A DNA stretch of 39,592 nucleotides from an uncultured Alphaproteobacteria bacterium (GTDB taxonomy: Bacteria > Pseudomonadota > Alphaproteobacteria > MPNO01 > UBA2964): the NCBI GenBank assembly GCA_938048165.1, contig CALIBP010000010.1, positions 1 through 39,592 of the forward strand, written 5' to 3'. Position 1 is the first letter of the stretch; each line of letters opens with the position of its first letter. The position numbers and the translations under genes are program-made. The notes under the pieces were generated by a model. The model had not been told where the DNA came from, made no database searches, and was given only the letters and a program-made list of their open reading frames with translations. This document shows, piece after piece, positions 6,295 through 39,311 of this stretch.

Positions 6295-6561
6295 CTACTC
6301 TTCGTCAAACCGACCCTTTACCAACGCGACAAGTGCCACAAGCCCTGCCTCGGCATCGCTCCCTGCCGACGAAATCGAAATTTCTGTACCAGGTCCTGCC
6401 GCCAGCATCATGAGCCCCATAATGGACAAAGCCGATACTTTTAGACCCGATGCCTCAACCGTAATCTCGGCGTCAAATTGCTCGGCAAGTTGGGCAAACT
6501 TCGCTGCAGCCCGGGCATGCAGGCCGCGCTGATTTATAATCGTCACTCTTTCCTGAAACAC
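6295..6561 (-). CDS. ptsH: HPr-family phosphocarrier protein
   Basis: An 88-residue HPr. The active-site His15 sits in RGLHARAAAKF and the regulatory Ser46 in VSALSIMGLM, both at canonical positions. It can therefore accept phosphate from PTS enzyme I on His15 and be phosphorylated by HPr kinase on Ser46. It follows the EIIA-Man gene with a 49-bp gap, and no sugar-permease (EIIB/EIIC) gene is nearby. The system is therefore the regulatory PTS known from many alphaproteobacteria rather than a sugar transporter. Enzyme I must be encoded elsewhere. The gene ends with TAG at the normal family length, evidence that TAG is used as a stop in this genome. Confidence 0.95.
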   Translation of the reverse strand: MFQERVTIINQRGLHARAAAKFAQLAEQFDAEITVEASGLKVSALSIMGLMMLAAGPGTEISISSAGSDAEAGLVALVALVKGRFDEE

Positions 6562-18455: not shown

Positions 18456-19373
18456 ATGGGACTTTACGCCAACCTGTCCACGAGATTCGACGCCGTTCCC
18501 GCCCCCGCGCGGGCGGCGTTCTGGATCACCATGGCGGGATTTTGTTTTACGGTCTCAATGACGGCGGTGCGAAAAGTTTCGGTCGATATGCATGTTTTCG
18601 AGGCCGTCATGTTCCGCAGCCTGTTCGGAATTGCCTTTATGATGCCTTGGCTGATGCGCAAGGGCTTTTCCGGCATCAGGACCAAGCGGCTCGGCCTGTT
18701 CGCCATCCGTGGCACCGGTGCCTATTTTGTAACCTATTTTTATTTTTCCGCCGCTGCGCTGATCCCGCTCGCCGACCTGACCTCCATCACCTTTACCCGG
18801 CCCATTCTGGGAACCATCGCCGCCATCATCTTTCTGAAAGAGGTCGCAGGCGCGCGGCGATGGTCGGCGATCGCAGTCGGGTTTATTGGTATGCTGATTA
18901 TCGTACGACCAGGGTTCGTCGACGTGAATCTTGGCATTCTGCTGGTCCTGTGCGGCGTGATGTTCCAGACCTGCAATACAATCATCGTCAAAAAGCTGAC
19001 TGAAACCGAACATCCTGACACCATCGTGCTGTATCACACGCTTTTTATTCTGCCGCTCTCCATCATTCCGGCGATCTATGTCTGGCAAACACCAACGCCG
19101 GAGCAATGGGCGTGGTTGGCGGTTATTGGGGCTGCCGGTATCCTGACCCAACGGGCCATGACCCGGGCCTTTGTTGCTGCTGATGCCTCATTCGTTCTTG
19201 CCATGAGCTATCTGCGTCTGCCGATTGCCGCCTTCGTTGGTTTTGCATTCTTTGGCGAGGTTCCGGAAATCTGGGTGTGGGTTGGCGCCAGCGTCATCTG
19301 TGCATCTTCTGCCTATATCGCCCGCCGAGAGTCTGTTCTCGCGCGCGAGAAACAAAAAGAAGAATCCACATGA
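18456..19373 (+). CDS. EamA/DMT-family transporter, first of pair
   Basis: A 305-residue integral membrane protein with about ten hydrophobic segments in two EamA repeats (about 20-150 and 160-290). The ITFTRPILGTIAAIIFLKE stretch at the end of the first repeat is characteristic of the drug/metabolite transporter superfamily. The substrate cannot be told from sequence; such proteins usually export amino acids, metabolites or S-adenosylmethionine-like compounds. Its stop overlaps the start of a paralogue by 4 bp (ATGA), so the two are co-translated and could form a heterodimer. Confidence 0.88.
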   Translation: MGLYANLSTRFDAVPAPARAAFWITMAGFCFTVSMTAVRKVSVDMHVFEAVMFRSLFGIAFMMPWLMRKGFSGIRTKRLGLFAIRGTGAYFVTYFYFSAAALIPLADLTSITFTRPILGTIAAIIFLKEVAGARRWSAIAVGFIGMLIIVRPGFVDVNLGILLVLCGVMFQTCNTIIVKKLTETEHPDTIVLYHTLFILPLSIIPAIYVWQTPTPEQWAWLAVIGAAGILTQRAMTRAFVAADASFVLAMSYLRLPIAAFVGFAFFGEVPEIWVWVGASVICASSAYIARRESVLAREKQKEEST

Positions 19374-20275
19374 GCAGGCTGAATGACGCCATCGATAGCT
19401 GGCCCGCGGTCATTCAATGTACCTTCTGGATTCTGATTTCAGGCACCCTGATGGTGGTGCAGCTTGGCATCGTGCGGATGATTGCCAATGATATCGATGT
19501 CTTTGAAATCGTTTTTTTCCGGGCTTTGTTCAGCTGTCTGTTTATTGCGCCGCTGATTATGAGTAACCCGACAGTGTTATTGCGCCCCAATCGACCGGTG
19601 ATCATGGGGCTTTGCGGCACGCTCGCCTTTGCCGCCGGCGTGTTTTTCTATTTCGCGGCAAAACACATGCCGATTGCCGACATCACGGCAATCCATTTTT
19701 CACGTCCGATCTTCGCCGCTATCCTCGCCGCAATAGTGTTGAAAGAAGTGATCAAGGGGGCGAGAGCCGTCGCCATTCTCGGCGGGTTTATCGGCGCGGC
19801 GATTATCATTCGACCTGGCATGGTGGATTTTAATATCGGTATCTTCTTTGTGCTGGGCGTGGTTTGCGTTCAGACTTGGAATCCGATCAACCGACGCCTG
19901 CTCTCGCAAAGCGAGCACCCGGATACGGTCGCCGTCTGGACGCAGCTGATCGTTCTCCCCTTAGCCATGGTTCCGGCATTCTTTTTCTGGACCACACCAA
20001 CACTGGAACTGCTCGGCTGGATGGCAATGATCGGGCTGCTGGAGATGTTGAACCAGCGCGTTCTCGCCCGTGCCTATGTCCAGGGCGAAACCGTTGTCGT
20101 GCTGGCCCTGCATTATACCCGCCTGCCACTGGCCGCCATCGTCGGCTATCTGATGTTTGGCGAAGTCGCTGAAATCTGGATTTGGGTCGGTGGTGCCGTC
20201 ATCGCCTGCGCCGCGCTCTATCTCGCGCAGCATGAGAGACGGGCGGAAATGAGCAAGGCAGCTCAGAACCCCTGA
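19370..20275 (+). CDS. EamA/DMT-family transporter, second of pair
   Basis: A 301-residue paralogue of the preceding gene with the same ten-helix plan; ADITAIHFSRPIFAAILAAI aligns with its neighbour's repeat-end segment. I start it at the ATG overlapping the previous stop (MSRLNDAIDSW). An upstream in-frame start at 19277 would lie inside the preceding gene. The tandem arrangement suggests gene duplication and possible pairing as a heterodimeric transporter. The substrate is unknown. A hairpin 38 bp past the stop may end the transcript. Confidence 0.88.
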   Translation: MSRLNDAIDSWPAVIQCTFWILISGTLMVVQLGIVRMIANDIDVFEIVFFRALFSCLFIAPLIMSNPTVLLRPNRPVIMGLCGTLAFAAGVFFYFAAKHMPIADITAIHFSRPIFAAILAAIVLKEVIKGARAVAILGGFIGAAIIIRPGMVDFNIGIFFVLGVVCVQTWNPINRRLLSQSEHPDTVAVWTQLIVLPLAMVPAFFFWTTPTLELLGWMAMIGLLEMLNQRVLARAYVQGETVVVLALHYTRLPLAAIVGYLMFGEVAEIWIWVGGAVIACAALYLAQHERRAEMSKAAQNP

Positions 20276-23758: not shown

Positions 23759-24421
23759 ATGATCTATATTATGACGGCGCTGGAAGCCGCCGAATTTCTT
23801 CGAATTAAGACCGACACGCTATATACGCTGATCGAGAAAGACGATCTGCCAGCCAGCAAGCTCGGCAACCAGTGGCGTTTTGTTCAGGAGGATCTCGTTT
23901 AGTGGCTGCGATCAAACACCAAATCCGCTCAGGCCAAACGGCCAGAAAAAATTTACAGCGAGCGCGACGCAATGGTCGAGATTTACCAGAAGTTTCTCGA
24001 CGCGACCTTTGATGCGGTGTTTTTGACACGCGACAGGATGATCATCGAATGCAACGACATTACCCTTGATCTCTATGGCTATAGGAGAGACGAGCTAGTC
24101 AACCAGCCGACGCAAAAATTAATGGCGCCGGAATTTCACGCCGCCGGCGCCTAGTCATCGACGACGGACAGAACCGGCTTATTGCAAACCGTGTGTCTTA
24201 AGGCAGACGGGACGGCCTTTCCGGTCGAAATCTCTGTCAAAACCGTATTCTATAATGAGCCGGGCCATCCGGAACAGCGCTGCCTGCGCATAACCACTGT
24301 CCGGAATATTGCGGATTTTGGCCAACACTGCTTGACCGACCCTGTGAGAGAAGTACTGCAAAACTATAAGGTTCAATCCCTGCAACCAGGTGTCGCCAGC
24401 GATATACGCCCGAAACGTTAG
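23759..24421 (+). pseudogene. Excisionase-type HTH plus PAS protein, interrupted by two in-frame TAG codons
   Basis: From ATG 23759 one frame stays open for 220 codons except for TAG at 23900-23902 (codon 48) and TAG at 24152-24154 (codon 132); it ends at a third TAG at 24419. Residues 4-50 form an excisionase/MerR-like HTH (MTALEAAEFLRIKTDTLYTL, then LPASKLGNQWRFVQEDLV). The first TAG falls where related proteins have E or another residue before WL. Residues 70-185 form one PAS domain: FDAVFLTRDRMIIECND and YGYRRDELVNQ precede the second TAG, CLKADGTAFPVEIS and TTVRNIAD follow it. Nothing is frameshifted. It is most simply a recently inactivated signalling regulator. Confidence 0.75.
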
Positions 24422-24560
24422 GGTTCACCGCAAAAAACCACTGAAATCGCCAGCCTGGGCAAAACAGGATGGCGTCATGCCCTTGGCAGCGGTCTGAAAA
24501 TTGGGTACGCCTTGTATCACTGATAATAAGCGCCATAGCGCCAGGATACGAGGAAACATC

Positions 24561-25550
24561 ATGACACCACTCAAGCTTAGTATTGCATCCACGGATTACG
24601 ATCATTTTCGCGATCTCCGCACCGGCGAAGTGCGCGCCCAGGGCATTGACCACACCTGGTCTACCCTGCGGCATCATGAGGTTTTTGCGCGCTTCACCGC
24701 CAGCCGCGACTGGGATGTCGCCGAGCTGAGCTTTGCCAAATTCATGGCCCAGGTTACCCGCGACGACGCCGACATCATCGGCCTGCCTGTGGTTTGCTCA
24801 CGGCTGTTCCGCTTCTCGTCCTTTTATGTTAACAAAAACGCCGGGATCAAAACCGTTGAGGACCTCAAGGGCAAACGTATTGGATCACCGGAATGGGCCC
24901 ATTCCGCTGCGGTCTATATGCGCGGCTGGATGCATAATGATTGCGGCGTCAAATTGCAGGACGTCCATTGGTATCAGGCAGGCGCGAACGCGCCGGGCCG
25001 GGTTGAGAAGGTCGAACTGACCCTGCCGGACGGTGTTGAGCTGACACGTGTTTCCGACAAGTCTCTTTCTGAACTGCTCGCCGCCGGTGAGATTGATTGT
25101 GCGATTATTGCGCGACCGCCAACCTGCTTCCTCGAAGGCCACCCAGATGTCGTGCGGCTGTTCCCCGACTATCTCGAGATGGAAAAGGATTATTACGCCA
25201 AGACCAAGGTCTGGCCGATCATGCATATCATGGTGATGCAAAACAAAGTTCTCGAAGAGAATCCCTGGGTGGCCCGCAATCTGCTCAACGCCTTCAACGA
25301 GTCCAAGGATAATAGTGTTGAGCGTCTGCTCGATCCCGCCGTATCCCGCTACCCGCTGGCCTGGGTACCGACCTATGCGCGTGAGATGCAGGCCATGTTT
25401 GGCGATGATCCCTATCCATTTGGTATCGAAGAAAACCGCGCGACCTGGGAACAGATGCTGCTTTATACCTATCAGCAAGGTATCGCCCACAAACATGTAA
25501 CGCCGGAAGATATTTTCCCGCAGGGGATCATGACCGACGTGGTGGTTTAA
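24561..25550 (+). CDS. 4,5-dihydroxyphthalate decarboxylase-like / NMT1-type binding-fold protein
   Basis: A 329-residue protein of the family annotated as 4,5-dihydroxyphthalate decarboxylase (Pht5), which shares the fold of ABC substrate-binding proteins. Recognisable parts are LKLSIASTDYDHFRDL at the N-terminus, VCSRLFRFSSFYVNKNAGI, and GKRIGSPEWAHSAAVYMRGW. No signal peptide is present, so it is probably cytoplasmic and an enzyme rather than a transport protein. The ATG at 24561 has GAGGA upstream; 20 codons of open frame before it are ignored. A GST gene follows by 13 bp, so the two are co-transcribed. The true substrate is unknown; decarboxylation of an aromatic acid is inference from the family. 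Confidence 0.8.
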   Translation: MTPLKLSIASTDYDHFRDLRTGEVRAQGIDHTWSTLRHHEVFARFTASRDWDVAELSFAKFMAQVTRDDADIIGLPVVCSRLFRFSSFYVNKNAGIKTVEDLKGKRIGSPEWAHSAAVYMRGWMHNDCGVKLQDVHWYQAGANAPGRVEKVELTLPDGVELTRVSDKSLSELLAAGEIDCAIIARPPTCFLEGHPDVVRLFPDYLEMEKDYYAKTKVWPIMHIMVMQNKVLEENPWVARNLLNAFNESKDNSVERLLDPAVSRYPLAWVPTYAREMQAMFGDDPYPFGIEENRATWEQMLLYTYQQGIAHKHVTPEDIFPQGIMTDVVV

Positions 25551-37933: not shown

Positions 37934-37992
37934 CTTTTCTTCATAAAAACAATGACTTGGGTTTTCGCCAACTCGTTGTTTGACCCTAAAAC

Positions 37993-38026
37993 CGCATGCA
38001 CATATCATACACATGATACACATGCG
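37993..38026. repeat. Short repeats in front of the integrase
   Basis: ATACACATG occurs twice in tandem (38007-38015 and 38016-38024), framed by inverted CGCATG (37993-37998)/CATGCG (38021-38026). This is a candidate binding site for integrase arm domains or a regulator. Confidence 0.45.
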
Positions 38027-38042
38027 TATTGGGGTAATCTCC

Positions 38043-39311
38043 ATGACAGACGTTAATAACAAGGTTGATGTGCGGGGTGATGGTTCAGTCATCCTCTATC
38101 AACGTCTGAAGTTTGGTAGCAAAACCGAGATTAGTGACATTTTCCATATGAGGATTCGCATTCCCCTCTCTGCATCGAAGGGGTATTTCCGGGGAAGCAC
38201 GGGTGAGAGCAACCAAGGCAGAGCAACTCAGGTCGCCCTGAACAAGTTCGATGAACTCTATAAAAAGGTGAAGGGTGGAGGGACTTTGCTGGGTAAATCC
38301 TTCAAGGATTTGTTCAACGAATGGAAAGTCCATTACCCCAAGGTGAGCAACGAGAGTCTTCCCCAGTATATCGAGTGGTCAATCAATCGTATCGGGAACT
38401 ACCCCTATACATTCTTCGTCGATGAAAAGGGGAACCCAAAGGTAGACACGATCACCCCGCAGGATTTTAAGGAATACTTCATTTACAGGAAGAATAATTC
38501 TGTGAAGAAGGGTGTTCCCTACTCACCCTCGAACAATACCATTCGTAAAGAATGCACCCTTCTCGGTCAGATGTTCTCTTATGCATTCGAGAAGGGTTAT
38601 CTTCCGAAGGAACTCAAAGTCAGCAGACCCTCTCCTGAGAAGGATTCGAGAAGACCCTCATTCACCAAAGATGAATGGAGAAAACTCACCACTGGGATGA
38701 GGAGACGGGTCAAAGACGGTTGGGGTGCTCACAAACGTGATCGGTTCATCCTCAATCAATATGTTCTCATCCTTGCAAATTGTGGTGTCCGTCTGGGTGA
38801 GTTGAGAAACATCAAGTGGAGTGATGTCCGAAGAGAGACTTACGAGGATGATGGAGACACGGTCCGTCTCATCATTCTGGTCAAAGGTAAAACAGGGATC
38901 AGAGAGGTCGTCTGCAACAAGGGAACTGAGGTCTTCTTTGAGAGGTTATACGACAACCGCAAAGAGGAACTGAACGCACATCCCTCACCCGACACCTTCG
39001 TGTTCTGTCATCAAGATGGAACACCCATCAAAACGATGCGTAAGGCGTTCGACAGTCTATTGGACGACCTCGACCTCAAGCAAAACTCGATGGGTAAGAA
39101 CCGCACCCTTTACTCACTTCGACACATGTATGCGACCTTCCGTCTGAGTGAAGAGGTGTCACCGTATCTGCTGGCAAAACAAATGGGGACATCGGTTGAG
39201 ATGCTGGAGAAGCATTACGGTCAGGTGGTCAATCGTCTGGTCGCAACCCAGATCACCAAAACCAGAAGTCGTCAGACGGTCAGGGTGACGGAGAAGGTTT
39301 ATCCCTTTTAG
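38043..39311 (+). CDS. int: Tyrosine recombinase / integrase of an integrated element
   Basis: A 422-residue tyrosine recombinase. The core-binding SAM-like domain spans about 90-210. The catalytic domain has the first Arg in NCGVRLGELRNIKW, a Lys in the VKGKTGIREV beta-hairpin, Arg and His in LYSLRHMYATFRL, and the nucleophile Tyr in LEKHYGQV. I start it at ATG 38043 (MTDVNNKVDVRGD); 21 codons of open frame lie before it. It begins 110 bp after tRNA-Arg and reads away from it, the usual layout of a tRNA-targeted phage or genomic island. Codon and base use differ from the upstream core genes. Confidence 0.93.
   Translation: MTDVNNKVDVRGDGSVILYQRLKFGSKTEISDIFHMRIRIPLSASKGYFRGSTGESNQGRATQVALNKFDELYKKVKGGGTLLGKSFKDLFNEWKVHYPKVSNESLPQYIEWSINRIGNYPYTFFVDEKGNPKVDTITPQDFKEYFIYRKNNSVKKGVPYSPSNNTIRKECTLLGQMFSYAFEKGYLPKELKVSRPSPEKDSRRPSFTKDEWRKLTTGMRRRVKDGWGAHKRDRFILNQYVLILANCGVRLGELRNIKWSDVRRETYEDDGDTVRLIILVKGKTGIREVVCNKGTEVFFERLYDNRKEELNAHPSPDTFVFCHQDGTPIKTMRKAFDSLLDDLDLKQNSMGKNRTLYSLRHMYATFRLSEEVSPYLLAKQMGTSVEMLEKHYGQVVNRLVATQITKTRSRQTVRVTEKVYPF

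Follow-up and report, generated by a model that had tools for sequence, protein, structure and literature searches.

Two in-frame amber codons in an HTH-PAS regulator gene of an uncultured alphaproteobacterium very probably mark a young pseudogene

The window analysed here (the whole stretch of 39,592 nucleotides, from an uncultured alphaproteobacterium) contains a frame on the forward strand, 23759-24523, in which TAG occurs at 23900 (codon 48), 24152 (codon 132) and 24419 (codon 221) before a TGA is reached at 24521 (codon 255), which raises the question whether a regulator gene has decayed here or whether TAG is sometimes read as a sense codon. With the TAGs translated as X, the frame matches the Pfam models HTH_17 at residues 5-53 (46.4 bits) and PAS_9 at residues 85-166 (31.8 bits), both above the curated cut-off, and these matches span codons 48 and 132, respectively, so the first-pass annotation was right that an HTH and a PAS domain run on across two in-frame TAGs. 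Within 663 bases the regulator frame holds 3 stops, compared with 6 to 14 in each of the five other frames, and together with protein identities of 63% and 69% to genes of two other genomes (G002 and G007) this means that the frame is more than chance. The features of the gene are as follows:

23759-24421, forward strand: very probable pseudogene of a 220-residue HTH-PAS one-component regulator, from start to natural stop at codon 221 (frame, Pfam, intact orthologues of G002 and G007)
23771-23917, forward strand: HTH_17/excisionase-type DNA-binding domain (residues 5-53), cut by the TAG at codon 48 (Pfam; NCBIfam TIGR01764 on the intact orthologues)
23900-23902, forward strand: first premature TAG, codon 48, where the intact orthologues have Asn/His (orthologue alignment)
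24011-24256, forward strand: PAS domain (PAS_9, residues 85-166), cut by the TAG at codon 132 (Pfam)
24152-24154, forward strand: second premature TAG, codon 132, where both intact orthologues have Trp (orthologue alignment)
24419-24421, forward strand: natural stop, TAG here (TAG in G002, TAA in G007, TAG in G001)

Both G002 (OX638326.1, a 4.1-Mb chromosome) and G007 (WLWZ01) are recorded as alphaproteobacterial metagenome assemblies, and each carries an intact orthologue of 220 residues. All 220 codons align with these orthologues without a gap, which means that the regulator frame contains no frameshift, as had been noticed from the letters alone. The comparison with intact homologues that had been proposed as a check thus places sense codons at both codon 48 and codon 132, and since the two orthologues end at codon 221 (with TAG and TAA), the TAG at this codon is the natural stop. 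Of the three amber interruptions originally counted, the two at codons 48 and 132 are indeed premature, but at the third the gene ends normally, which leaves two lesions instead of three. Likewise, the open frame to the TGA at 24521 does exist, but the stretch from codon 221 to 255 is a non-coding, intergenic tail, the counterpart of which in G002 contains a TGA and a TAA, while the G007 gene ends at its TAA. Readthrough past codon 221 to this TGA can be ruled out, because the orthologues end at 221 and the tail is conserved intergenic DNA.

By its sequence, the regulator is a member of a genus-restricted HTH-PAS family. A comparison with 61 genomes (its own and 60 relatives) gave strong matches along most of the frame in the window's own genus only, and a profile built from the intact members matched 3 of 385 genomes of the class at E <= 1e-15, all of them in this genus. 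The intact orthologues match both HTH (PF12728, TIGR01764) and PAS (PF13426, TIGR00229) models above cut-off, while none of the NCBIfam equivalog (whole-protein) models reaches its cut-off against them. The likeness to HTH_17/excisionase-family proteins therefore lies in the HTH_17 domain, here fused to PAS, whereas the lack of an equivalog match and the confinement of the full profile to one genus set the family apart.

The nine genomes of the genus yielded seven copies of the family. Three of these are intact, two in G007 and one in G002; the remaining four are broken, each in a different way. In the window genome (G000) the copy is interrupted by the two TAGs; in the orthologue of G001, the start and the HTH (including codon 48) are deleted and a conserved Trp is replaced by TGA; a second G001 copy (G001:C117) is a PAS remnant carrying one TAG; and in G004 the HTH is split over two frames, without a matching PAS. 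Neither of the window TAGs is shared with G001, G002 or G007 (codon 48 being deleted in G001). The gross lesions of two of these copies, i.e. the HTH deletion in G001 and the frame break in G004, are beyond repair by any suppressor tRNA, and the damage to relatives in sister species by other types of lesion indicates an ordinary young pseudogene rather than an altered genetic code.

The age of the decay was estimated from the selection on the gene. With branch lengths fixed by five neighbouring genes, omega is 0.246 on the regulator branch (0.153-0.339 in 100 bootstraps), compared with 0.230 and 0.131 on the branches of G002 and G007, and against a background of 0.177 this gives a 2 delta lnL of 2.1 under these fixed lengths. 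A fit with free branches gives 0.32 versus 0.039 (2 delta lnL of 7.2), which would suggest stronger relaxation, but its synonymous sites are saturated. An omega of 1 over the whole regulator branch is excluded. When the genes share branch lengths, the regulator has an omega of 0.19 and the neighbours have 0.015-0.10, which makes the regulator the least constrained of the six; the five neighbours have 78-96% protein identity among G000, G002 and G007, compared with the 63-69% between the regulators and the window frame. Changes by codon position (20:15:40 in the window, 32:15:61 in G002 and 22:13:43 in G007) show no relaxation. If the excess omega reflects unconstrained evolution, it would correspond to ~8% of the branch (0-20%), or ~24 changes, with roughly one nonsense mutation; the probability of two or more nonsense changes is then 0.25 under a simple model, and that of no indel is 0.09-0.30 if 0.1-0.05 indels per change are assumed. 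Purifying selection on the branch and the absence of a frameshift together mean that the decay must be young, and from the substitution pattern it appears that the regulator decayed recently, purifying selection having held for most of the branch.

The same constraint is what one would expect if TAG were read through to some extent, by a suppressor tRNA or by leaky termination, so that a little full-length regulator is still made. Such partial readthrough is very unlikely here, even though every premature stop in the regulator is a TAG. RF1 is intact (prfA is full length, 504.8 bits, above cut-off), and the check for an amber suppressor or pyl genes that had been suggested found no CUA anticodon among the 24 tRNA matches of the 68% complete genome (ARAGORN names 23, and the last, a fragment, reads CAT by eye), nor any among 35 distinct tRNAs read from the complete G002 (43 matches listed). 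A suppressor tRNA could be missing from the window genome because of its incompleteness. The pylS N-terminal family TIGR03912, the sole pyl model used, is absent from this 68% complete genome, while it was detected in a control archaeon. A pattern search for CUA anticodons is uninformative, with 48 hits (28 forward, 20 reverse) versus 168 for a reversed-pattern control. TAG is moreover a common natural stop: 373 long ORFs in 838 kb of the window genome end with TAA (149), TGA (134) or TAG (90), and polA as well as HPr (6295-6561, minus strand) and the integrase (37980-39311) terminate at TAG, the latter two as already pointed out in the first-pass annotation. There is also no excess of TAG among 73 stops flanked by coding sequence (33 TGA, 21 TAA and 19 TAG), as found by a codon-usage scan of low power, in which the middle and last segments of the regulator itself score 0.17 and -0.01. 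Thirty frames around these 73 candidate stops were sent to Pfam (12 of them without a domain), and two sensor kinases and a DivK-like regulator were found to be interrupted, while most other domain-bearing frames look like natural neighbours. The kinases are interrupted by other codons, namely TAA, TGA and TAA in a PAS-PAS-PAS-HisKA-HATPase kinase (L157:3790-6594, G000:C222; no frameshift) and TAA between HisKA and HATPase in a HAMP-HisKA-HATPase kinase (L118:6101-7564, G000:C18).

Amber-decoding bacteria (pyrrolysine users and lineages with reassigned UAG) presumably resemble this case in having in-frame TAGs inside recognisable domains, but here RF1 is present, no pylS match or CUA tRNA was seen, and TAG is in common use as a stop; amber reassignment is thus unsupported by RF1, tRNAs, pylS, stop usage and coding-flanked stops alike. 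The all-amber pattern is also weaker than it seemed, since the third TAG is natural and the probability that both premature stops are TAG by chance is 0.12-0.16, i.e. about 1 in 7. That many in-frame stops are tolerated in bacterial genes under purifying selection, as reported by Belinky et al. 2021 (PMC7918605), would favour readthrough, but most of these stops are short-lived, and the test for function in that study relies on stops common to several species. The regulator resembles the young pseudogenes surveyed there (in-frame stops, purifying selection still visible, short-lived), and it differs from the cases resting on shared stops in that no orthologue has either TAG. The earlier preference for decay over readthrough therefore holds, given the sense codons in the orthologues, the four of seven copies broken in various ways, the intact RF1, the fact that neither a CUA tRNA nor a pylS match was seen in the 68% complete genome, the TAA and TGA codons in other interrupted genes and the absence of a genome-wide TAG excess.

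Other genes with TAGs could still be taken as signs of readthrough. The receiver-domain gene (Response_reg) at L109:1951-2313 (G000:C8), which we take to be DivK, has a single in-frame TAG and is intact in G002, G003, G004 and G007. The change that gives this TAG affects two neighbouring bases in a stretch that is conserved, for which reason it may be an error, and the gene seems dispensable in the family, as no close match to it was found in G008 (96% complete) and G011 (99%). A TAG and a break in the frame close to the end of a DivK-like gene from the same order (L214, G019:C155) have the look of an assembly error. In the sister genome G002, the chromosome of which is complete, four neighbouring genes (G002:C1, ~482-491 kb; L234:1900-11100), including enoyl-CoA hydratase, amidohydrolase-like and aminotransferase genes, each have one internal TAG that passes the filter described below, while being 88-95% identical to intact G000 copies; a second stop shows in the alignments of two of them. 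Lesions were called in 10 of 82 aligned G002 genes (4 frameshifts and 6 stops, not all inspected by eye; the 70% identity required drops the regulator itself), and with four called frameshifts among them this indicates ordinary gene decay in G002. That low-level decoding of UAG in the genus keeps the HTH-PAS regulator, the DivK-like gene and the G002 cluster functional at reduced expression is very improbable. It is likewise very improbable that the true gene is intact and that a sequencing or assembly error accounts for one TAG or both. The genome is in 307 contigs and 67.86% complete, and the TAG in the DivK-like gene does look like an error, but when 115 regions (98 kb) were aligned with G002 genes, filtered internal stops occurred in just three, namely in the regulator, ahead of a gene start in a second region and within an 88-residue match in the third. 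To pass the filter, a stop must be flanked on either side by 10 residues with 4 of them identical, a requirement that drops codon 132 of the regulator; an unfiltered run lists more stops, many of them at alignment ends. Two errors in one 660-base gene are unlikely, since such a rate would have broken many other genes.

The locus is thus very likely best described as a young pseudogene. It would derive from a one-component regulator of 220 residues, made up of HTH_17 and one PAS domain, and lies in a conserved gene order. The order is shared by G000, G001, G002 and G007 and consists of an ABC-type gene, two EamA genes, the regulator, an NMT1-like gene, a GST gene and MmgE/PrpD (names from Pfam domains, except for the ABC-type label, which derives from the sequence of that gene), with extra DNA ahead of the regulator in G000 and G007. 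The neighbouring features in the window are:

18456-20275, forward strand: two EamA transporter genes, syntenic upstream neighbours (Pfam, synteny)
24422-24560, forward strand: intergenic region of 139 bases, non-coding, ahead of the NMT1-like gene (alignment)
24561-25550, forward strand: NMT1-like gene, intact here, probable regulated neighbour (Pfam NMT1, synteny)

Upstream of the NMT1-like gene, an intergenic block (CTTGGCAG..AAAATT..TAC.CCTTGT) is kept in all four genomes, while no match to the sigma-70 consensus was found in the region 24422-24560. The block is a probable cis-regulatory element of the NMT1-like gene. From its position, the intact protein would probably sense a small ligand or the redox state via PAS and control the NMT1-GST genes, or its own gene, via this block. 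In the window genome, two nonsense changes would have ended the regulator, with translation stopping at codon 48, inside the HTH. The peptide left would lack the sensor altogether as well as the last part of the HTH, and has probably lost its function. That the remaining frame persists is presumably due to the recency of the loss, and not to any decoding of TAG. A broken regulator stands next to an open NMT1-like gene in G000 and G001, whereas G002 combines an intact regulator with an NMT1-like gene (L056:7137) in which TGA replaces a conserved Trp. One further G002 gene (L195:10936) has a TGA where a conserved Trp is expected.

If readthrough were true after all, an alphaproteobacterium would be decoding amber codons at a low level while keeping RF1, which would matter far more than a pseudogene. 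As it is, the locus illustrates how little an interruption by TAG only says in favour of recoding if the gene naturally ends at one of the three stops. For the genus, the case shows one regulator family being lost in parallel, through different lesions, while its neighbours are still 78-96% identical at the protein level.
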